From positions 1 through 29,022 of IMG/VR virus record IMGVR_UViG_3300035698_014487: a DNA stretch of 29,022 nucleotides. One strand, written 5' to 3'. How positions within the stretch are numbered: the stretch's first letter is position 1; each line of letters opens with the position of its first letter. This stretch comes from a virus. This document shows positions 6,812 through 28,200 of this stretch, piece after piece. The notes below the pieces were generated by a model. That model saw only the letters and a program-made list of their open reading frames with translations. It was not told the origin of the DNA and did not search any database. The translations under genes and the position numbers were made by a program.

Positions 6812-7510
6812 ATGGATACCAAAGCAATAGTGGCATACGAAAAAAGTGGCAGCGAGCTATTAGCGGCTGCGGAAGCAATCACGATTGATGATGAGGCCAC
6901 GCGGGAGATAGCGAATGAGTTTACCATAAAGGCTCGCCAAGCCATTAAATTCATCAAGGATGAGTTCAAGGGTGATATTAAGACAGCATACGAACTCCAC
7001 AAGAGTTTATTGGCGCGGCAGAAAAGGCTGGTTGGTCCGTTTGAACAGGCACGGGTGATTGTGGACAAGGAGATCAGCCGGGAATTCATGGTGCGAGATA
7101 AGTTGCGTCGGGATGCGGAGTGGGAGGCACAGAAAAAGGTGGATGCAGAGCGGCGTGAGCAGGAGGCAGCATTGGCCAGAGAGGCTGAAGCCCTTATTGA
7201 TGCCGGAGAGATGGACGAGGCAGAGGCCGTATTGGATTCCGAAGTGGTTGTGGAGTCCGTGGTGCCTGTGGCGGAGGTACAGCGTACTACGAGGTCTGAG
7301 GCCGGGAGTGCTACGGTGAAGATGGGCATCAAGGTTGAAGTGGTGGATAAGGTGGCGGTGATCGAGGCTGTGGCTGCCCGGAAGCTGCCTGCGACCCTGC
7401 TTACTGTGGACTTGGGCAATGCCAAGCGGTATGCGAAGGCGAGCGGGGTGAAGGCGATGCCCGGGTTCAGGATAACGGAAACAGCAGGGGTGAGTGGGAG
7501 GGTGCGATGA
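6812..7510 (+). CDS. Coiled-coil phage recombination-module protein
   Basis: The 232-residue protein has a long central coiled coil (about residues 55-140, rich in E/K/R/A, e.g. AEWEAQKKVDAERREQEAALARE). A compact C-terminal domain of about 65 residues begins near TTRSEAGSATVKMGIKVEVVD. The helical scaffold with a short C-terminal domain matches a common phage protein type located next to exonucleases and annealing proteins, often of unknown role. Its last 4 nt overlap the next start. A structural or nuclease-modulating role is possible but unproven. Confidence 0.65.
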   Translation: MDTKAIVAYEKSGSELLAAAEAITIDDEATREIANEFTIKARQAIKFIKDEFKGDIKTAYELHKSLLARQKRLVGPFEQARVIVDKEISREFMVRDKLRRDAEWEAQKKVDAERREQEAALAREAEALIDAGEMDEAEAVLDSEVVVESVVPVAEVQRTTRSEAGSATVKMGIKVEVVDKVAVIEAVAARKLPATLLTVDLGNAKRYAKASGVKAMPGFRITETAGVSGRVR

Positions 7511-7794
7511 TTAACCTAACAACAGAGGTACATGCGGCTTTGGAGACGGTGTTGGAGGCAGAGGATGAGTTTGCAACCATGTTCAAGGGGTTGGCTGTTA
7601 TGCAGTCTAGTAAGTTGGAATACCCGCTTGGGCATAAAGTGGAGATTCTGGCTGCCCTTACACTCCACCTCATAGCCAACCTGGTGGAGGCGCAGGCCGA
7701 GATAGGGCAACTGAAGGGGCAGATGGCCCTACTCAGAACGGACCTTAATATTCTCTTTGATATAGATACAGGGGGAGAGGAGGATGAGTTATGA
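7507..7794 (+). CDS. Hypothetical helical protein
   Basis: The product is a 95-residue acidic protein, predicted all-helical, with a possible leucine-zipper-like run LIANLVEAQAEIGQLKGQMALLRTDL near residues 56-79. It is coupled to its neighbours by 4-nt overlaps at both ends. No family recognised. Confidence 0.55.
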   Translation: MINLTTEVHAALETVLEAEDEFATMFKGLAVMQSSKLEYPLGHKVEILAALTLHLIANLVEAQAEIGQLKGQMALLRTDLNILFDIDTGGEEDEL

Positions 7795-11127: not shown

Positions 11128-11375
11128 TAGCATGGCAAGGGAATTGGCAAGACAAAGAGCGGCACATGCTTGGTGTACACCTGAAACAGAGCATATTGAA
11201 ATGGATGTAATTCTTGGAGAAGCGTTTGCGGACATACTGGAGGAGGAATGTTCCAAACCTCGGCTTGGCTGTGCCACTACAAGGGAAATACTTGAAGAAT
11301 TAACAGCACGTACTGAGGTCAATGGTCAGTTGGATTATAAGACTATCGATAGATGATATGGTTCCACCGGAGGAG
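11101..11375 (+). repeat. 18-bp direct repeat bracketing one small gene
   Basis: ATGGTTCCACCGGAGGAG occurs exactly at 11101-11118 and 11358-11375. Each copy ends in the GGAGGAG ribosome site of the following gene, and between them lies exactly one gene (11132-11356). The first copy also encodes the last residues of the upstream protein (MVPPEE). The match extends beyond the ribosome site, so shared translation signal alone does not explain it. Duplication or insertion of a gene cassette is the likely origin. Confidence 0.75.
11132..11356 (+). CDS. Small helical protein in a repeat-bounded cassette
   Basis: The 74-residue protein starts MARELARQRAAHAW and has acidic helical segments (GEAFADILEEEC, TTREILEELTA). 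ATG 11132 follows GGAGGAGAAAGG. It is bounded by the 18-bp repeat at 11101 and 11358, which suggests it was inserted or duplicated as a unit. No family recognised. Confidence 0.5.
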   Translation: MARELARQRAAHAWCTPETEHIEMDVILGEAFADILEEECSKPRLGCATTREILEELTARTEVNGQLDYKTIDR

Positions 11376-11382
11376 GGATGAG

Positions 11383-11559
11383 ATGAAACCGAAAACCATG
11401 AAAGTGGAGGTTGAAATCGTCGTCAATGCAGACGACGAGACGCTGTGTAGTAGTAAGTGTATCGGTTATTGGAATGAGTGCCCCCATAAGACTCACCGCA
11501 TAATTGATAGGATGCCTCGCTGCTGGCAGTGTCGTGTTGCGGAGGTGACCGATGACTGA
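11383..11559 (+). CDS. Small CxxC protein A
   Basis: The 58-residue protein (MKPKTMKVEVEIVVNADDETL...) has CSSKC and CWQC pairs and another Cys at PHK, fitting a small zinc knuckle. ATG 11383 follows GGAGGAGGG (11369-11377) at 5 nt. Its layout, a short beta strand with DDE followed by two Cys pairs, matches the next gene, so the two are probable paralogues. Function unknown. Confidence 0.5.
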   Translation: MKPKTMKVEVEIVVNADDETLCSSKCIGYWNECPHKTHRIIDRMPRCWQCRVAEVTDD

Positions 11560-11770
11560 AGTAACGATAGCACTGACGATCCAGGTTGACGATGAGGACA
11601 GGCTGAAGTGTGGTAAGTGCCCCAACTATGCTGAAAAACGCTACTGTGCAATCCCACAATTCGACGAGGATATTATCAACGGTTATCGTTGCCAGGTTTG
11701 TCTCGATGCTGAGAGGGCATTGAGGCGGATGTTGATTATGAGTGGGATTGAAGGGAGAAATAAGTCATGA
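11552..11770 (+). CDS. Small CxxC protein B
   Basis: The 72-residue protein (MTEVTIALTIQVDDEDRLKCGKC...) has CGKC and CQVC pairs plus an intervening Cys, and a helical C-terminal extension absent from protein A. The start overlaps the previous gene by 8 nt and the end overlaps the next start (ATGA). Shared architecture with protein A suggests tandem duplication and divergence. Confidence 0.55.
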   Translation: MTEVTIALTIQVDDEDRLKCGKCPNYAEKRYCAIPQFDEDIINGYRCQVCLDAERALRRMLIMSGIEGRNKS

Positions 11771-11979
11771 AAAAGTATTCACGATGGAAGAGGTATGGAT
11801 TCGGGAAATGGTGCGCAACAAAACCAGTAAATCTATATATTCCCCGTGGATATATCGGAAAAGTGCTTGAATGGGTCGCTATAAAGACTCATAAATGCTA
11901 CGATAAGGGTAAAATCGGTATATGCGATCTGATTTATGCCGTAGAGAAAGAAAAAGAGGATAAAGATGCGTCGAATTAA
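11767..11979 (+). CDS. Small basic protein
   Basis: The 70-residue protein begins MKKYSRWKRYGFGKWC, rich in Lys, Tyr and Trp, and has a charged tail (EKEKEDKDASN). The start is coupled to the preceding stop. Its 3' end overlaps the next small gene by 14 nt. No family recognised. Confidence 0.5.
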   Translation: MKKYSRWKRYGFGKWCATKPVNLYIPRGYIGKVLEWVAIKTHKCYDKGKIGICDLIYAVEKEKEDKDASN

Positions 11980-12124
11980 GATTATACTTTACGGGTGGAT
12001 GTTGAGATTCTGGAATTGGGATATTAAACGGCAACATAGACTTAATGCCGAATCTCTTGAAAGACTACACAAGGCGCGTGAAAATAAACGTGGTATTCTT
12101 GAAGAGATGGGGAGGCTAATATGA
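11966..12124 (+). CDS. Very small basic protein (52 aa)
   Basis: ATG 11966 follows AGAGGAT, and its TGA (12122-12124) overlaps the next ATG at 12121. The product (MRRIKIILYGWMLRFWNWDI...) has a short hydrophobic aromatic N terminus and a basic helical C-terminal half. It may be membrane-associated. The tight fit between neighbours and the ATGA junction are the main evidence that it is real. Confidence 0.5.
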   Translation: MRRIKIILYGWMLRFWNWDIKRQHRLNAESLERLHKARENKRGILEEMGRLI

Positions 12125-12588
12125 CTGAGATTACGGAAGCGAGGTATAAGCTTTTCTTGGACGGAAAGCCCGTGGGTGAGATGCGTATAATGCCATTCAA
12201 TGAAGAAAACCCTCATATCCATATATTCCAGGCGAGATATAGTTTTCATGATCCAGGCGACCTGGTTGATTTAACAGACGGAGAACCAGAACATTGGTTG
12301 CATCCACCTATCAAGCATGATTCCATATCCCCCGGTCTCTTTCTCCCCAAAGATGGCAAGTGGGGGTTTGATGGGGATACGGTGGAACGAGAGCGGAGTT
12401 ATATGCAGTATGGCAGCAAGGAGGGTGATGGGAAAACAGGGCTTATTACAGAAACCGCCGCCGGAACTCTCGTCTGGACAGGATACGAGTGGAAAATTGA
12501 GGGCAGATATGGTGAGTTCTATGATCATATGGGATCAAAGTTCTCATGGGAAGAGATAACGCTGGCAGAAAGGAGGAGTGATGAATAG
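12121..12588 (+). CDS. Hypothetical phage protein
   Basis: The 155-residue, probably beta-rich protein ends in a pattern GTLVWTGYEWKIEGRYGEF...FSWEEITL that is common in small phage accessory proteins. It is acidic overall. ATG 12121 is coupled to the preceding gene and its end overlaps the next ATG by 8 nt. I recognise no catalytic motif. Confidence 0.55.
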   Translation: MTEITEARYKLFLDGKPVGEMRIMPFNEENPHIHIFQARYSFHDPGDLVDLTDGEPEHWLHPPIKHDSISPGLFLPKDGKWGFDGDTVERERSYMQYGSKEGDGKTGLITETAAGTLVWTGYEWKIEGRYGEFYDHMGSKFSWEEITLAERRSDE

Positions 12589-14600: not shown

Positions 14601-15173
14601 ATGAGACCATGTAAAGACCATGATGACCTGGGCTGTCCTATGACACGCATCAACCGTGTGGATGGGCAGGGGCCGGTACCGTGCAGTATTATGCTGATCG
14701 GTGAGGCGCCGGGCAAGACTGAGGACAAGAAAGGTAAGCCGTTCGTGGGGAAGAGTGGGAGTGAGCTCGACCACCTGTACCTGGATAAGTGTGCGAACAT
14801 CAGCAGGGAGAATGTGTATGTGACAAATCTGGTGAAGTGCAGGACGAATGAGAAGGACAGGGATCCGACGGTGGCTGAGATGGGAGCATGTTCCCACCTA
14901 TTAGCCGATGAATTACATGTAGGGAAGCCCCGCTTTGTGGGGAGTATTGGGAGCTTTGCAACACAATGGTTTTGGGGGCTTAGTGGTGGGTGCACGATGG
15001 AGAAGGTGCATGGATTTGGTTTCACACATACCCTTGGCTTTATAGTCATGCCCCTCTACCATCCAGCATTCGGCCTGCACAACACCGCCATGATACGGCA
15101 TATTATGGATGACTGGACGAGGTTCGGGAAGATGGTGAGGGGAGATGAGAGTGTAATGTGGAGGGCAAGATGA
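14601..15173 (+). CDS. Family 4-like uracil-DNA glycosylase
   Basis: The 190-residue enzyme should remove uracil from DNA. Visible motifs are GEAPG (34-38), GKPFVGKSG (45-53), TNLVKCR (75-81) and PLYHPA (151-156). Cysteines at 4, 12, 80 and 96 match the positions expected for the [4Fe-4S] cluster of family 4 enzymes. ATG 14601 follows TTTGGAGG. A phage-encoded glycosylase just before the polymerase suggests repair of deaminated phage DNA or exclusion of uracil. Family 5 is the main alternative. Confidence 0.8.
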   Translation: MRPCKDHDDLGCPMTRINRVDGQGPVPCSIMLIGEAPGKTEDKKGKPFVGKSGSELDHLYLDKCANISRENVYVTNLVKCRTNEKDRDPTVAEMGACSHLLADELHVGKPRFVGSIGSFATQWFWGLSGGCTMEKVHGFGFTHTLGFIVMPLYHPAFGLHNTAMIRHIMDDWTRFGKMVRGDESVMWRAR

Positions 15174-15262
15174 AAACATACACTTGGCGTCTTTCATATT
15201 GTTTCTGGGCAGTGTACTGGCGTATTGCCATCAAATGGGATTACTGGAGGAGGGCGCGATGA
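15170..15262 (+). CDS. 30-codon coupling ORF
   Basis: ATG 15170 overlaps the glycosylase end and its TGA (15260-15262) overlaps ATG 15259 of the next gene. The 30-residue product (MKTYTWRLSYCFWAVYWRIA...) is aromatic and basic. The double ATGA junction supports translation, perhaps mainly to couple the downstream gene. It may be too short to have its own function. Confidence 0.4.
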   Translation: MKTYTWRLSYCFWAVYWRIAIKWDYWRRAR

Positions 15263-15489
15263 ATAGACGCGATTTGTTTAAGAGTACCGTCGCCATACCC
15301 TTAGCGGCGATCGGTATTAAAGGCACGATAAGCAGTGAGCAATCTCTTATGCCCATAGCAAGCCTCGGTGGCGTGTTCGTGGCGGAGTATTGGCATGATG
15401 GAGTACTGATGGCCACATCGAAGGTGGAGAATTCTGTTACCAATGAGGGACTGGACGAGATTTTGGTCTGTGGAGGGCAAAATGAATAG
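15259..15489 (+). CDS. Tat-signal-like protein A
   Basis: The 76-residue protein begins MNRRDLFKSTVAIPLAA, a good match to a twin-arginine signal (RRxLFK followed by a hydrophobic stretch). It shares its first 40 residues with the next gene. The mature part (YWHDGVLMATSKVENSVTNEGLDEIL) resembles the N-terminal strand pattern of small phage structural proteins of the 'NxVVNxGLxxIL' type. ATG 15259 is chosen because GGAGGAGGG lies upstream and the homology with protein B starts there. Export is inferred only. Confidence 0.55.
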   Translation: MNRRDLFKSTVAIPLAAIGIKGTISSEQSLMPIASLGGVFVAEYWHDGVLMATSKVENSVTNEGLDEILVCGGQNE

Positions 15490-15700
15490 ACGTGGTTTAT
15501 TTAAGGGGCTTATTGCTACACCCTTGGCGGCGGCACTTAATATTGAGGGTACGGTAAGCGCCAAGCAATTACCCGGGCTTATAAACGGTGTAGGGGTATT
15601 CTCGGGCAAGCGATTGATAGCAAAGACATCATTCCCCGCCAGCAATGTAGCTGTTGGGGATAAGATGGTTATTACTTATACATTAACCGTGGAGCCGTGA
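15482..15700 (+). CDS. Tat-signal-like protein B (paralogue of A)
   Basis: The 72-residue protein begins MNRRGLFKGLIATPLAAALN, parallel to protein A (MNRRDLFKSTVAIPLAAIGI), and continues similar through GVGVF near residue 40. Its C-terminal part (FPASNVAVGDKMVITYTLTVEP) is different and looks like the last strands of the same kind of phage beta domain ('VxxGDxxxVTYTLT'). It overlaps gene A by 8 nt. Together the pair looks like a tandem duplication in which each copy kept a different half. Confidence 0.55.
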   Translation: MNRRGLFKGLIATPLAAALNIEGTVSAKQLPGLINGVGVFSGKRLIAKTSFPASNVAVGDKMVITYTLTVEP

Positions 15701-15704
15701 AAAC

Positions 15705-16919
15705 ATGAGGATAGCAGCCGTTGACACAGAAACCGTAGCTGACGCGCCCTGGAGTATTCAGTCAGCCAGCGACTCATCCCCTGCCGGCATGATGCACTAC
15801 TGTGACCAGCCCAACCACATGACAGCCATCAAGACACGGTTAGAGTGGGCAGAGACACTCACGGTGCTACACAATGCCAAGTTCGACCTGCGTGTGCTGA
15901 ACCAGTGTGGCATACAGCCCCATAAGTACGAGTGTACGATGCAGATGGCCTACCTGCTGGGTATGCCCGCACTCTCCCTCAAAGTCCTTGCCTATCGTAT
16001 TGCAGGTATCGAGATGAGGACGTTCGACGAGGTGACAGAGAAGGCAACGCAGGAGAAAGCGGAAGAGTACCTGTGGGATGTGTTGGGGCAGGAGTGGCCT
16101 AACCCGGATGCCACTATGAAGACGACGAAGGAGGGTGAGGTGAAGTTCTCCTTCCCTAAGAACATCAAAGGCAAGGTGGAGGGGTTGCTCACGAAACATG
16201 CAGGCGACCCCACTATCAACCTGCGTAAGAAGTGGCGGGCAATGGATGAGGCTGGTGGGCGTGGGCAGGTGGAGAAGGTTATGGGTAAGATGGCAAGGGC
16301 GTACCTTGATGAGGTGGATAGGGATGAGGCCGAGGAGTACGCCAAACTCGATGCTGCAGCTACTTTGGCCATCTACCCATACCTTCATGAGCAGATTGAG
16401 CGGTATGGGCTGCAAGAGGTGCTGGAGAGCGATATGGACTGCGTGCCGATGGTGATTGAGATGGAGGACAATGGGGTGTTGCTGGATAAGGCGGTACTGG
16501 AGGAGCTCCGGGTGGATTTAGATGAATTGTCAGCAGGTACACTTATTGATATTGAGCATCTGGCGGGGAAGTATGTGAACCCCAGGAGCAGTCAGCAGGT
16601 GGTGGCGCTGCTTCAGGACAAGGGGATATACACGGACATGGAGACGAGTACCGATGCCAGTGTGTTGGATCAGTATAGGGAGCATACCATCGTGAATAAG
16701 ATACAGGATTATAGGGCATACTCTAAGCTGCAATCGACATACGTGGAGGGGCTGTTGAAGGCGGCAAGGGCGGATGGCAAGGTACATACGACGTTCTCTA
16801 TGACGAGGACAGAGACGGGGAGGTTGGCGAGTAGTAAGCCGAATTTACAGAATATACCAGTGAGGACGGAGTTGGGGAGAAGGATAAGGCAAGCGTTTGT
16901 GAGTGAAAGGAGTGAGTGA
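15705..16919 (+). CDS. Family A DNA polymerase, N-terminal fragment (3'-5' exonuclease plus thumb)
   Basis: The 404-residue fragment carries exo motif I (DTE at 7-9), exo II (HNAKFD, 56-61) and exo III (YAKLD, 212-216), so proofreading is probably active. Polymerase sequence follows: thumb, then TGRLASSKPNLQNIP (371-385) and RTELGRRIRQAFV. The frame stops after SERSE, exactly where the palm strand with motif A should begin. The missing part is encoded at 17272 in another frame. There is no 5'-3' exonuclease domain. The two pieces could assemble into one enzyme or be joined by RNA splicing. Confidence 0.9.
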   Translation: MRIAAVDTETVADAPWSIQSASDSSPAGMMHYCDQPNHMTAIKTRLEWAETLTVLHNAKFDLRVLNQCGIQPHKYECTMQMAYLLGMPALSLKVLAYRIAGIEMRTFDEVTEKATQEKAEEYLWDVLGQEWPNPDATMKTTKEGEVKFSFPKNIKGKVEGLLTKHAGDPTINLRKKWRAMDEAGGRGQVEKVMGKMARAYLDEVDRDEAEEYAKLDAAATLAIYPYLHEQIERYGLQEVLESDMDCVPMVIEMEDNGVLLDKAVLEELRVDLDELSAGTLIDIEHLAGKYVNPRSSQQVVALLQDKGIYTDMETSTDASVLDQYREHTIVNKIQDYRAYSKLQSTYVEGLLKAARADGKVHTTFSMTRTETGRLASSKPNLQNIPVRTELGRRIRQAFVSERSE

Positions 16920-17102
16920 TGCAGCGATTTAAGATGCATGTAACGCATAGGGGTACTGTATACAAAGAGGATCACCCATATGGTGAGTGGGTTCACTTCG
17001 AGGATGTGCGGAGGGCGCTACGGGCTCTGTTCAAGGCGAAGAATCTTTTTGAATGGATAGCTGCGTTGGAGGTGTTGCACGGCTTTCGAAAGGAGTGAGT
17101 GA
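16905..17102 (+). repeat. 15-bp direct repeat in the polymerase gap
   Basis: GAAAGGAGTGAGTGA occurs at 16905-16919 and 17088-17102. Each copy includes a ribosome site and a stop codon, and together they bracket the 59-codon gene at 16919-17098. The first copy encodes the terminal residues of the polymerase N-terminal fragment, so that end may not be native polymerase sequence. Confidence 0.7.
16919..17098 (+). CDS. Small protein inserted in the polymerase locus
   Basis: The 59-residue protein starts MQRFKMHVTHRGTVYKEDHPYGEWV and has a helical C-terminal half (FEDVRRALRALFKAKNLFEWIAAL). ATG 16919 follows AAAGGAG and overlaps the stop of the polymerase fragment. It is bracketed by a 15-bp direct repeat. 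No family recognised. It separates the two polymerase fragments together with the HTH gene that follows. Confidence 0.6.
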   Translation: MQRFKMHVTHRGTVYKEDHPYGEWVHFEDVRRALRALFKAKNLFEWIAALEVLHGFRKE

Positions 17103-17105
17103 GTG

Positions 17106-17279
17106 ATGAAGCAGTCACTAAGGCGTAAAACACACCACATGTCTACCAAGCGGGAGCATGCTAAGATATTGGCTTTGGCGGAGCAGGGTGTAAAGTCTGT
17201 GGATATTGCGGAGCGGTTTGGTATGTCAGGTGCAGCGGTAGCCGACATTGTGAGGAAGAGTAAGGTGTCTGATGGTTGA
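17106..17279 (+). CDS. Small HTH protein between polymerase fragments
   Basis: The 57-residue protein starts MKQSLRRKTHHMSTKREHAK. It has a clear helix-turn-helix: ILALAEQGVKSVDIAERFGM then SGAAVADIVRKSK. This pattern (G-x-S-x-x-D/E-I-A-x-x-F-G-x-S) occurs in resolvase-type HTHs and in the C-terminal DNA-recognition part of HNH homing endonucleases. Its place in a polymerase gap makes a homing-endonuclease remnant attractive, but no nuclease domain is present. It overlaps the polymerase C-terminal fragment by 8 nt. Confidence 0.65.
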   Translation: MKQSLRRKTHHMSTKREHAKILALAEQGVKSVDIAERFGMSGAAVADIVRKSKVSDG

Positions 17280-18018
17280 GTGTAGCTTGTTGGCGTTAGA
17301 TTTTTCACAGATCGAGCTCCGTGTAGCAGCCCACGAGTCCCAGGACCCTACCATGCTGTCCATCTTCCGCAATGACGGGGATATGCACATGACCACGGCC
17401 TGTGAGATGTTCGGGTTGAAGCCAGAGGATGTGGATGACAAGGCGCACCGGCGCCCGGCTAAGACCGTGAACTTTGGCACGATCTATCTGATAAGTGCGA
17501 AGGGGCTGTGGACGCAATTCCAACATGAGGGGTTGGTGCAATTCACTGAGCATGACTGTCAGGACTTCCTGGATAGCTGGCGGGCTACCTACCCAGGCTT
17601 CTTCGATTGGGTACAGGAGGTAAGTGCAGAAGCGCGGCGTACAGGTATGGTGCGGGATATGTTCGGGCGGATACGATGGATACCGGAGTTGAATTCGTCG
17701 CTTAGGTATGTACGGGAAGCAGGGATACGACAGGCTGTGAATGCGCCGATACAGTCTGGTGCGGGCGGTATACTCAAGGGAGCAATAGGGCTGCTCACGC
17801 CTATCGTGAGGCAATGGCAAAGCGATGGTGTTGTGTGCCGCCCATTGCTTCAAATTCATGATGAGTTGATATTTGAAGTGGAGGGTGAGTGGTTGTCGGT
17901 GATTGCGCCACGGTTCCAGCAGGTTATGGTGGGGGCTGTGGAGTTGAGTGTGCCGGTGAAGGTGGATTGTGAAGTGGGAAAGAACTGGAAGGATTTGGAG
18001 GCGTACACTATTAATTGA
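17272..18018 (+). CDS. Family A DNA polymerase, C-terminal fragment (palm and fingers)
   Basis: The 248-residue fragment begins four residues before motif A: LLALDFSQIELR (6-17). Motif B follows as RRPAKTVNFGTIYLISAKGL (60-79), keeping the Arg, Lys, Phe and Tyr of the O-helix but with Leu where nearly all relatives have Gly (YG to YL). Motif C is QIHDELIFEV (HDE at 196-198). All three metal and nucleotide motifs are present, so this fragment should hold the catalytic centre once combined with the N-terminal fragment. ATG 17272 overlaps the HTH gene. Confidence 0.9.
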   Translation: MVECSLLALDFSQIELRVAAHESQDPTMLSIFRNDGDMHMTTACEMFGLKPEDVDDKAHRRPAKTVNFGTIYLISAKGLWTQFQHEGLVQFTEHDCQDFLDSWRATYPGFFDWVQEVSAEARRTGMVRDMFGRIRWIPELNSSLRYVREAGIRQAVNAPIQSGAGGILKGAIGLLTPIVRQWQSDGVVCRPLLQIHDELIFEVEGEWLSVIAPRFQQVMVGAVELSVPVKVDCEVGKNWKDLEAYTIN

Positions 18019-25830: not shown

Positions 25831-28200
25831 ATGCTTACAACACGCAATATGCCTAAGAAGCGTAAGGTTTTTGATATAGACACAAAAACAGCGGAATCTA
25901 TCTCAATATCCGATCTGCCCAACAGAGGGCGGAGACGTGAGGCAGACCAGCAGAGGGCTGTTAAGGAGCGGGCTACACCCAAGATACTTACAATAAGCGA
26001 TCTGCCCCGGCGTACACGGGATGCACGGAAAAACAGCATTGTGCGTTCTCAACCTGTGCAGACACTATCTACCCGTAGGCTGCTCGGTCCGAAGGTGTTT
26101 GCCGATTATGTGCATAATGGTGCGTGGAATGGGAGACGGTGCTTTATCATTGGTGGTGGGCCGAGCGTGAAAAGGCTGGACTTGGACATGCTACGGAATG
26201 AATTGACGATTGGCATCAACAGGGCATACGAGTTGTTGAGTCCAAGTATACTGTTTGGTGTGGACGGGCAGCTATGGGGATGGGCTGAACAGGGTAAGCT
26301 GGGTGAAGAATCGAAGAGGAAGTTTATTGCATACGACGGGTACAAGGTGTGGATGGCCTTGCATAAAGTATTCCCACCGGACTTCTATCTCATCGATGTG
26401 GATGATAGAGGTGGGGACAGGATAGGGTCTACCAGGCTGCTGGGATTTAAGAGTAATTCAGGGTACGGGGCAATCAATTTGGCAGCGGCGTTGGGTGCAA
26501 ACCCTATCTACCTGGTTGGATTTGACATGCAGGGAGACAAGCAGGGGAAACAGAAGTGGTGGCATGAGGGCTATCCCATAGATTATGGGGAGAACATATA
26601 TAAAGGGTATATTGAGGATATTAATAAGTTTGCCCCCGTGCTGAAGCGGGCTGGTGTGGATGTGGTGAACCTGAATCCTAAGTCGGCATTGAAGTGCTTC
26701 ACATTTGGCAAGTACGAGCAAGTGGTGGCAACGAAACCCACGATACCTGCAGGCGCAATACGGACTATGGCACGGCCAGACATGATAACAGTGATAACAC
26801 CCACAGGGGATAGGCCGCTGGCCTTCGCACTCTGTAAGCACTGGATGAGCAGGCAGACACGTAAGCCTGACCAGTGGATAGTGGTGGATGACGGTAAGAC
26901 ACCGCTGGTGCCTACGGCTGCAATGACCTATGTGAGAAGGCCGCCGAAACGGCGTGACCCTAAGCACACACTCACAGTCAATATGGATGCAGCGTTGCCC
27001 TATATCCGCGGGAGCAGAATACTGATTATGGAAGATGACGAGTACTACGGCCCGGGGTATATTCAGCAGATGTCTGATGAGCTAAGGAACTATGAAGTGG
27101 TTGGCATGTCCCACGCTAAATACTACCATCTCCCGTCAGGTGGCTGCCACATCATACCGAATACATTACACGCTTCCCTTGCGCAGACAGGCTTCAGGAG
27201 TACATTCCTGCCCTCGGTGCGAAAAGCGCTTAGTATTAAGCATGAGGTATATCTCGATATGAGGATGTGGCGAACGGCACTGGCAGAGCAGAGAGGGTTT
27301 TTGTTTGCCGATGTGGATGATTTGCTGTTTGTGGGGATGAAAGGCATGAGCGGCAGGAAAGGTATTGGATCTGGGCATAATTCTGCGGCATATGCGTCTA
27401 AAGATATTACGCGTGGTACATTGCGGAAATGGGTGAAGAAGGACGCACAAGTATATCTTGATATATTAAGTGGTAAGTTGAACGATGCGACGTGTGAGAG
27501 CTACTTCCGGGCTATCACGGGTATTACAGTGTGCTACAACACCAAAGAGCTTATGCAGAGGGCTTATGAGTCGGTGAGGCATTTCCATCCTGAGATGCCT
27601 ATTGTGATTGTTGATGGGTCGGACGCCAATGATCCCTGTGCAGCTTATGTGAGTGGACTGGCATCTGATCTGACTACTGTTGTGCAGCCGGGACATAATA
27701 TCGGACATGGGGAGGGCATGTGCCTAGGTATCAATACGGCACAGACAGCATACGCCCTTATATTTGATTCAGACATAGAGATGCTGAAGTCGCCGGTGGA
27801 TGCCATGTTCGCCATGATGGAACCGGACACGTACGGTGTGGGGTATACGGAGAAGAGTGGGATGGATGGGTATGAATACGGAGCCCATGTACACCATGCA
27901 GGACAGGAATCCATGCGTATGCTGCATCCGTACTTCCAGTTGCTCAACATTGCCAACTATCGCAAGTTCCACCCCTATGTTCATCACGGTGCACCTTGTT
28001 ATTTAGCGGCACGGGATATACATGAGCAGGGGCTTGAGCACACCATCAAGGAGTTTCCAGGACTGGGGCATTCATCGGGCAAAGGATGGGTGTGGACAGG
28101 CGAACCGAGAGAATACATTCGACATGATCCTGCGGGTACACGGCATAGCAGAAGTGCCAAGGGTCAGAGTGAGATAGAGGGGAATTGGGTGAGAGAATGA
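25831..28200 (+). CDS. Three-domain DUF115-like/glycosyltransferase fusion
   Basis: The 789-residue protein has a basic N terminus (1-90) with two copies of an ISDLP motif (26-30, 55-59). A DUF115-like Rossmann domain follows (about 100-295; FIIGGGPSVKRLDLDML at 105-121, SGYGAINLAAALGANPIYLVGFDM near 210-233). Then come a GT-A glycosyltransferase domain (about 318-540; VVDDG 351-355, MEDDEYYG 400-407) and a second GT-A-like domain (about 553-735; IVDGSDAND 593-601, GHGEGMC 625-631, IFDSDIEM 644-651 with a DxD). Such fusions transfer sugars; the acceptor is unknown. ATG 25831 follows AGAGGAG. Confidence 0.75.
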   Translation: MLTTRNMPKKRKVFDIDTKTAESISISDLPNRGRRREADQQRAVKERATPKILTISDLPRRTRDARKNSIVRSQPVQTLSTRRLLGPKVFADYVHNGAWNGRRCFIIGGGPSVKRLDLDMLRNELTIGINRAYELLSPSILFGVDGQLWGWAEQGKLGEESKRKFIAYDGYKVWMALHKVFPPDFYLIDVDDRGGDRIGSTRLLGFKSNSGYGAINLAAALGANPIYLVGFDMQGDKQGKQKWWHEGYPIDYGENIYKGYIEDINKFAPVLKRAGVDVVNLNPKSALKCFTFGKYEQVVATKPTIPAGAIRTMARPDMITVITPTGDRPLAFALCKHWMSRQTRKPDQWIVVDDGKTPLVPTAAMTYVRRPPKRRDPKHTLTVNMDAALPYIRGSRILIMEDDEYYGPGYIQQMSDELRNYEVVGMSHAKYYHLPSGGCHIIPNTLHASLAQTGFRSTFLPSVRKALSIKHEVYLDMRMWRTALAEQRGFLFADVDDLLFVGMKGMSGRKGIGSGHNSAAYASKDITRGTLRKWVKKDAQVYLDILSGKLNDATCESYFRAITGITVCYNTKELMQRAYESVRHFHPEMPIVIVDGSDANDPCAAYVSGLASDLTTVVQPGHNIGHGEGMCLGINTAQTAYALIFDSDIEMLKSPVDAMFAMMEPDTYGVGYTEKSGMDGYEYGAHVHHAGQESMRMLHPYFQLLNIANYRKFHPYVHHGAPCYLAARDIHEQGLEHTIKEFPGLGHSSGKGWVWTGEPREYIRHDPAGTRHSRSAKGQSEIEGNWVRE

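Follow-up and report, generated by a model that had tools for sequence, protein, structure and literature searches.

How a family A DNA polymerase is made when its gene lies in two pieces is the question raised by a 29,022-base IMG/VR record of an uncultivated virus (hereafter the window, i.e. the whole stretch of DNA that was analysed, which is possibly a fragment). In this window, the polymerase is encoded by two ORFs on the plus strand, in different frames and with two small ORFs between them. The first (N-fragment, 15705..16919, 404 aa) comprises the 3'-5' exonuclease, the thumb, and the palm up to RRIRQAFVSERSE and a stop codon, and it also holds the TGR...NIP motif. The second (C-fragment, 17272..18018, 248 aa) contains motif A (LDFSQIELR), the fingers with motif B (RRPAKTVNFGTIY), and motif C (QIHDELIFEVE). 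A split at this point, with a helix-turn-helix (HTH) gene in the gap, had been claimed in an earlier note on this DNA, and both its coordinates and its frames are confirmed. That the C-fragment is in another frame and begins before motif A was also right, but not by the four residues that the note had given, because it starts with MVECSLLALD, in which nine residues precede the catalytic Asp.

The two fragments together account for a whole enzyme. The N-fragment matches Pfam DNA_pol_A_exo1 (7.6e-14) and positions 3-149 of the DNA_pol_A profile, and the C-fragment matches positions 152-381 of the latter (5.5e-63), so that jointly they span the profile with no hole. In an alignment with full-length Taq polymerase, the N-fragment matches up to residue 602 and the C-fragment matches residues 606-828; therefore, no conserved residue is missing between the halves. 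Motifs A, B, and C align to those of Taq and are invariant across the six loci of the window clade described below, except for DFS/DYS/DLS in motif A. With the full profile, the exonuclease domain, and all three motifs present, the locus encodes a family A polymerase with a 3'-5' exonuclease. Where dS could be computed, the N-fragment had a pairwise dN/dS of 0.10-0.15 and the C-fragment one of 0.04-0.14, figures that are rough because dS is near saturation. Both halves are under purifying selection and decay is excluded, which bears out, on Pfam and Taq coverage and low dN/dS, the earlier view that all catalytic motifs are kept and that neither half is decayed.

To locate the break within the fold, an intact relative (L008) was modelled in place of the two-chain complex of the window. 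The model (mean pLDDT 88.5) is Klenow-like as assessed by Foldseek. The residues equivalent to the break, AQPG (about residues 411-414), form a loop before a strand (residues 415-422) that carries motif A. By this model, the break falls in an exposed turn that leads directly into the strand of motif A.

Five other IMG/VR contigs (L001-L005), with C-fragments 78-82% identical to that of the window, have the same break. The clade consists of metagenomic contigs throughout, six contigs from six metagenome records, and both ends of the break are visible in five of these loci, the L002 contig beginning inside the gap. Within the clade, the last residues of the N-fragment are RQAFVSERSE or differ from it slightly, and the C-fragment starts with M[VTI][EDN]CS(L/F)LA(L/I)D. 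Searches for further members with the N-fragment, with a profile, and with the junction pattern returned the same contigs only. No known phage matched the window by DNA similarity, and no relatives were found in bacterial genomes. The gap ranges from 226 to about 570 nt among close relatives and is differently filled in each: a 96-aa ORF in L001, an HTH ORF and a 120-aa ORF in L002, 68- and 69-aa ORFs in L003, an HTH ORF, a truncated duplicate of the C-fragment start, and a 121-aa ORF in L004, and a 77-aa ORF in L005. The window, L002, and L004 share a homologous HTH ORF, the first gap ORF of L003 (ORF68) is a homologue of the gap ORF of L005 (ORF77), and L001 has, downstream of its polymerase, a relative of the L002 gap gene (50% identity). 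Because the gap genes differ around a fixed break, the gap is best described as a slot with changing contents. Across these six contigs, the split is fixed in the window clade while the gap content turns over.

In the window, the slot holds a 60-aa ORF (16916..17098, plus strand, ATG at 16919) and a 58-aa ORF with an HTH (17103..17279, plus strand, ATG at 17106). No Pfam or PHROG family was found for the former, whose first half weakly resembles the start of the L002 gap ORF (tblastn E 0.005). The latter, which has the homologues in the L002 and L004 gaps, carries the only domain recognisable in the window gap with Pfam and PHROGs. Among PHROGs, it scores best against an HNH endonuclease family, in the C-terminal HTH (E 1.4e-5), and further HTH families follow closely. 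Two small gap genes, one of them with an HTH, were thus correctly described in the earlier note, and the likeness to HNH endonucleases was found as well, but other HTH families fit nearly as well. With Pfam and PHROGs, the window gap yielded no homing endonuclease beyond this HTH domain, and the gap ORFs of the clade as a whole yielded HTH domains only. The HTH gene may be an endonuclease remnant, but for the window this idea is a weak one: two relatives have a similar HTH gene, and the HNH part is unseen in the clade.

The junctions on either side of the gap genes are compact. A junction box, GAAAGGAGTGAGTGATG (16905..16921, plus strand), encodes the ERSE tail and stop codon of the N-fragment and, for the gene that follows, contains the ribosome-binding site and extends into the start codon. 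A second copy, GAAAGGAGTGAGTGAGTGATG (17088..17108, plus strand), lies at the head of the HTH ORF, and the two copies form direct repeats that flank the 60-aa ORF. A search for the box with up to 3 mismatches gave 3 matches versus 0.14 expected. With at most one mismatch to the consensus, there are seven sites in the window and L001-L005, every one of them in the polymerase gap, a count in which only the absence outside the gap is informative because the consensus was drawn from these same sites. At the other end of the gap, the start codon of the C-fragment is either ATG, as in the window, or GTG at each of the six loci. An out-of-frame TGA or TAA lies in codons 2-3 of the C-fragment in all six loci and in the L004 partial duplicate, and the preceding ORF stops at these codons or, in L005, at a GTGA overlap. 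Shine-Dalgarno-like pairing is found 5' of the C-fragment despite differing upstream genes (dG -5.5 to -10.7 kcal/mol), at strengths that are moderate, not exceptional, since random positions equal them in 2-32% of cases.

The partial duplicate in L004 (L004:1794-1850) repeats the start of the C-fragment (MINCSLLALDYSQIE, then RRE and a stop codon) upstream of the working copy. It is nearest to L002 (38/45 bases), and the working copy is nearest to the window (35/45). The duplicate ends at GAA/AGGAG, where the next box begins. We infer that it may be the scar of a gene acquired by recombination.

A polymerase broken at the homologous turn exists in a second group of phages. The polymerase of OM43 phage MEP401 has been published as two ORFs with a small ORF between them, for which an intron was suggested (PMC10580990), and its break falls at the turn homologous to that of the window. 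Among 80 related contigs of this OM43-type group, all 76 with both ends readable are split there. Their gaps fall into overlapping ORFs (n = 14), 26-52 nt, in which there is no gene (n = 8), 90-125 nt (n = 10), and at least 222 nt (n = 44). The halves overlap by 1 nt in the Alcaligenes phage isolate QDWS535. In circular MW202796 (L170, phage ct2os315), they lie at 11232-12392 and 6923-7633, i.e. 3.6 kb apart, separated by seven annotated genes, a C5 methyltransferase and six others (L170:6923-12392). Gap contents in this group include an endonuclease gene in L142 (PHROG 3322, E 7.7e-29) and, in circular phage ctOsX528, an R67-type dihydrofolate reductase gene (L166:2282-2488, PF06442 2.7e-22). 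The near-identical L064 and L066 differ by a 223-bp unit that carries a winged-HTH gene (HTH_39; L066:2480-2770) and is bounded by GGAGAATAA(C/T)ATG repeats. The motif A Asp seemed to be missing from L142, but this was rejected because the start is intact and a one-base frameshift follows it. That frameshift (L142:3000-3030), just past the C-fragment start and beside the endonuclease gene, is either a sequencing error or recent damage.

We asked whether these splits share one origin using a tree of 33 sequences, in which long branches are present. The window clade is monophyletic (100/100), sister to L006, and nested inside uninterrupted relatives. The comparison with related phages proposed in the earlier note thus did yield an uninterrupted gene, in L007-L013, whose polymerases are intact at the break site of the window. 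The locus is therefore a natural split, in which one ancestral gene is now two coding regions while relatives are uninterrupted. The OM43 group is likewise monophyletic (100/99), and its sisters are the uninterrupted HTVC033P and HMO-2011. Constraining every split sequence to one group lowers the log-likelihood by 154 units (AU p 2e-69), a wide margin even with the long branches, and a single origin of both splits is rejected. The polymerase of L006 is also broken, but elsewhere, 46 residues earlier, at a point that is again in a loop of the L008 model. This break (L006:3911-6747) lies between the thumb and RLHTYLSMTRTGTGRL, with an N6/N4 DNA methyltransferase gene in the gap. The N terminus of this methyltransferase looks frameshifted. 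H77, considered as another split polymerase, was rejected since its ORF is continuous.

The polymerase may once have been part of a longer chain. A uracil-DNA glycosylase (UDG) gene lies at 14601..15173 on the plus strand (190 aa, Pfam UDG 4.7e-25). In L007, L009, L013, and L015, UDG is fused to the exonuclease and polymerase as their N-terminal domain, and it is a separate gene in the window and in L006, which do not have this SPO1-like fused UDG-polymerase arrangement. If the fusion is older, as the tree suggests, an ancestral UDG-polymerase chain is now in three pieces. In L001, the UDG gene (L001:2290-3900) has, at NLVKC/CRTNEKDRDP, an inserted intein (intein splicing 2e-9) that contains a LAGLIDADG endonuclease (PF03161 1.2e-15). 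The window UDG has no intein. The possibility that the L001 UDG is split by an inserted gene was rejected, as a single ORF runs through the intein. In the window, the interval from UDG to the N-fragment (15184-15700) contains two small ORFs that seem to be tandem paralogues (MNRR(D/G)LFK...PLAA) and may have twin-arginine-like signals. Much further downstream, in the structural gene region (25831-28200), a 789-aa ORF has a glycosyltransferase-type look as judged by eye.

One alternative to two chains, raised in the earlier note, is that the gene is interrupted by a self-splicing intron, now with only an endonuclease remnant, whose removal restores a single mRNA and a single protein. Introns are well known from the family A polymerase genes of phages (PMC11878797), one was suggested for the same split in the OM43 phage study (PMC10580990), and the window HTH ORF weakly resembles an endonuclease HTH. 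However, Rfam at the gathering threshold had no match, and so no group I or II intron RNA, in the window or in relatives, and a permissive search of the window gap returned chance snoRNA matches only. Gap RNAs were no more stable than shuffled sequences (z +1.33, +0.81, and +1.42). In addition, the gaps of close relatives carry different genes over their 226 to about 570 nt, and the C-fragment keeps a start codon with an embedded out-of-frame stop. The zero-gap and 3.6-kb-apart versions in the second lineage also count against an intron there, since splicing of a single short intron cannot rebuild such halves, and this evidence reaches the window by analogy because these cases belong to the other lineage. 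With no Rfam match, no fold signal, and variable gap content, the intron is not supported and we consider it very unlikely. It is likewise improbable in the extreme that the polymerase is decayed, or that the C-fragment is dispensable and another polymerase is in use. Such an enzyme could lie outside the 29-kb window, itself possibly a fragment, but no second polymerase was recognised among the window proteins scanned, dN/dS is well below 1 for both halves, and the catalytic motifs are kept across loci that are 68-82% identical.

Joining of the halves as protein or during translation, by a programmed frameshift, ribosome bypass, or a split intein, would also give one chain. Bypass and split inteins occur in phages, the PolB intein of MIJ3 is a phage precedent, and the L001 UDG intein lies in the same operon. 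The N-fragment, however, has a plain stop and no intein block, and the ends are short; Pfam detects no intein domain in either fragment. In the clade, the gap is at least 226 nt and varies between relatives, and a frameshift could serve only the overlapping arrangements of the second group, so that joining of this kind is barely credible. Finally, an assembly or sequencing artefact might be suspected because the clade is known from metagenomic contigs alone. We regard it as virtually impossible, since the break recurs in all six contigs, each from its own metagenome record, and the gap contents differ. The recurrence of the break in the five other contigs likewise disposes of the assembly chimera against which the earlier note had cautioned.

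The replicative polymerase of this phage clade is thus very probably made as two separately translated chains, as read from its genes. The two-subunit enzyme that the earlier note offered as its other model is strongly supported by the separate starts, the fixed break, selection, and the second lineage. The two chains would fold together into one enzyme and are predicted to bind each other and to be active as a pair. All exonuclease and polymerase residues are kept, and the ends should adjoin in the fold, because the break is in an exposed turn before motif A. The genes are packed as a tight operon, in which the end of the N-fragment supplies the next gene's ribosome-binding site and overlapping start; the stop/start overlaps at both junctions suggest that translation is probably coupled. 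The slot between the halves is occupied by one or two small genes that can be exchanged and do not belong to the polymerase. The original break may go back to an inserted gene, perhaps one for an endonuclease. By analogy with T4-type split genes (PMC2988022) and with the endonuclease in the L142 gap of the second group, a homing endonuclease could plausibly have founded it, although the window clade no longer has one. The junction box might then serve at once as ribosome-binding site, stop/start overlap, and direct repeat, such that small genes could be swapped within an essential operon without harming the two-part enzyme. We tentatively propose, as a generalisation that may well not hold, that phage family A replicases have been broken repeatedly, at least twice, at the turn before motif A, and that this site then becomes a landing slot where the junction box enables gene swapping.

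A two-chain replicase broken nine residues from its catalytic Asp, if true, would show how far this fold tolerates fission, and the break would be a ready split point for controllable polymerases if the two-chain enzyme works. Repeated origin and replaceable gap genes make the origin of phage genes-in-pieces testable, including with the bare-split isolate QDWS535. They also call for caution with automatic intron labels for such gaps, as applied to the OM43 phages.

Natural split phage enzymes are already known, as is this exact break in another group (OM43). What is new is a second independent origin, together with the evidence that speaks against an intron and an interpretation of the break as an exchange slot. 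The closest system is that of OM43 phages MEP401 and MEP402 (PMC10580990; OP830906), which, like the window, have an ORF for the exonuclease and N-terminal polymerase, a small ORF, and a C-terminal ORF, broken at the homologous turn. Unlike the window, they belong to a separate lineage with other gap genes, and the intron of their authors is disputed by our wider comparison. The Aeh1 NrdA gene split by mobE and the T4 gp39/gp60 topoisomerase resemble the window in that an enzyme gene is in two regions with a gene inserted, and their split products reassemble, with function shown for NrdA (PMC2988022). They are other enzymes, a homing endonuclease is present there, and the window pair is read from sequence. 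Split gene 43 of Aeromonas phages 25 and 44RR also gives a replicative polymerase as two proteins, but of family B and with another break (PMC2988022). In Aeromonas phage MQM1, a family A polA is interrupted by ORFs, one of them an HNH endonuclease, and consists of three ORFs for which the authors suggest introns (PMC10410586); its breaks lie elsewhere because the fragments are 590, 115, and 56 aa. The DNA polymerase III alpha of jumbo phages is a catalytic subunit made as two proteins encoded apart, in family C (PMC7824862). Lastly, the group I introns of SPO1/Bastille-type polymerases (PMC11878797) occupy the same kind of host gene, whereas no intron RNA was found in the window.
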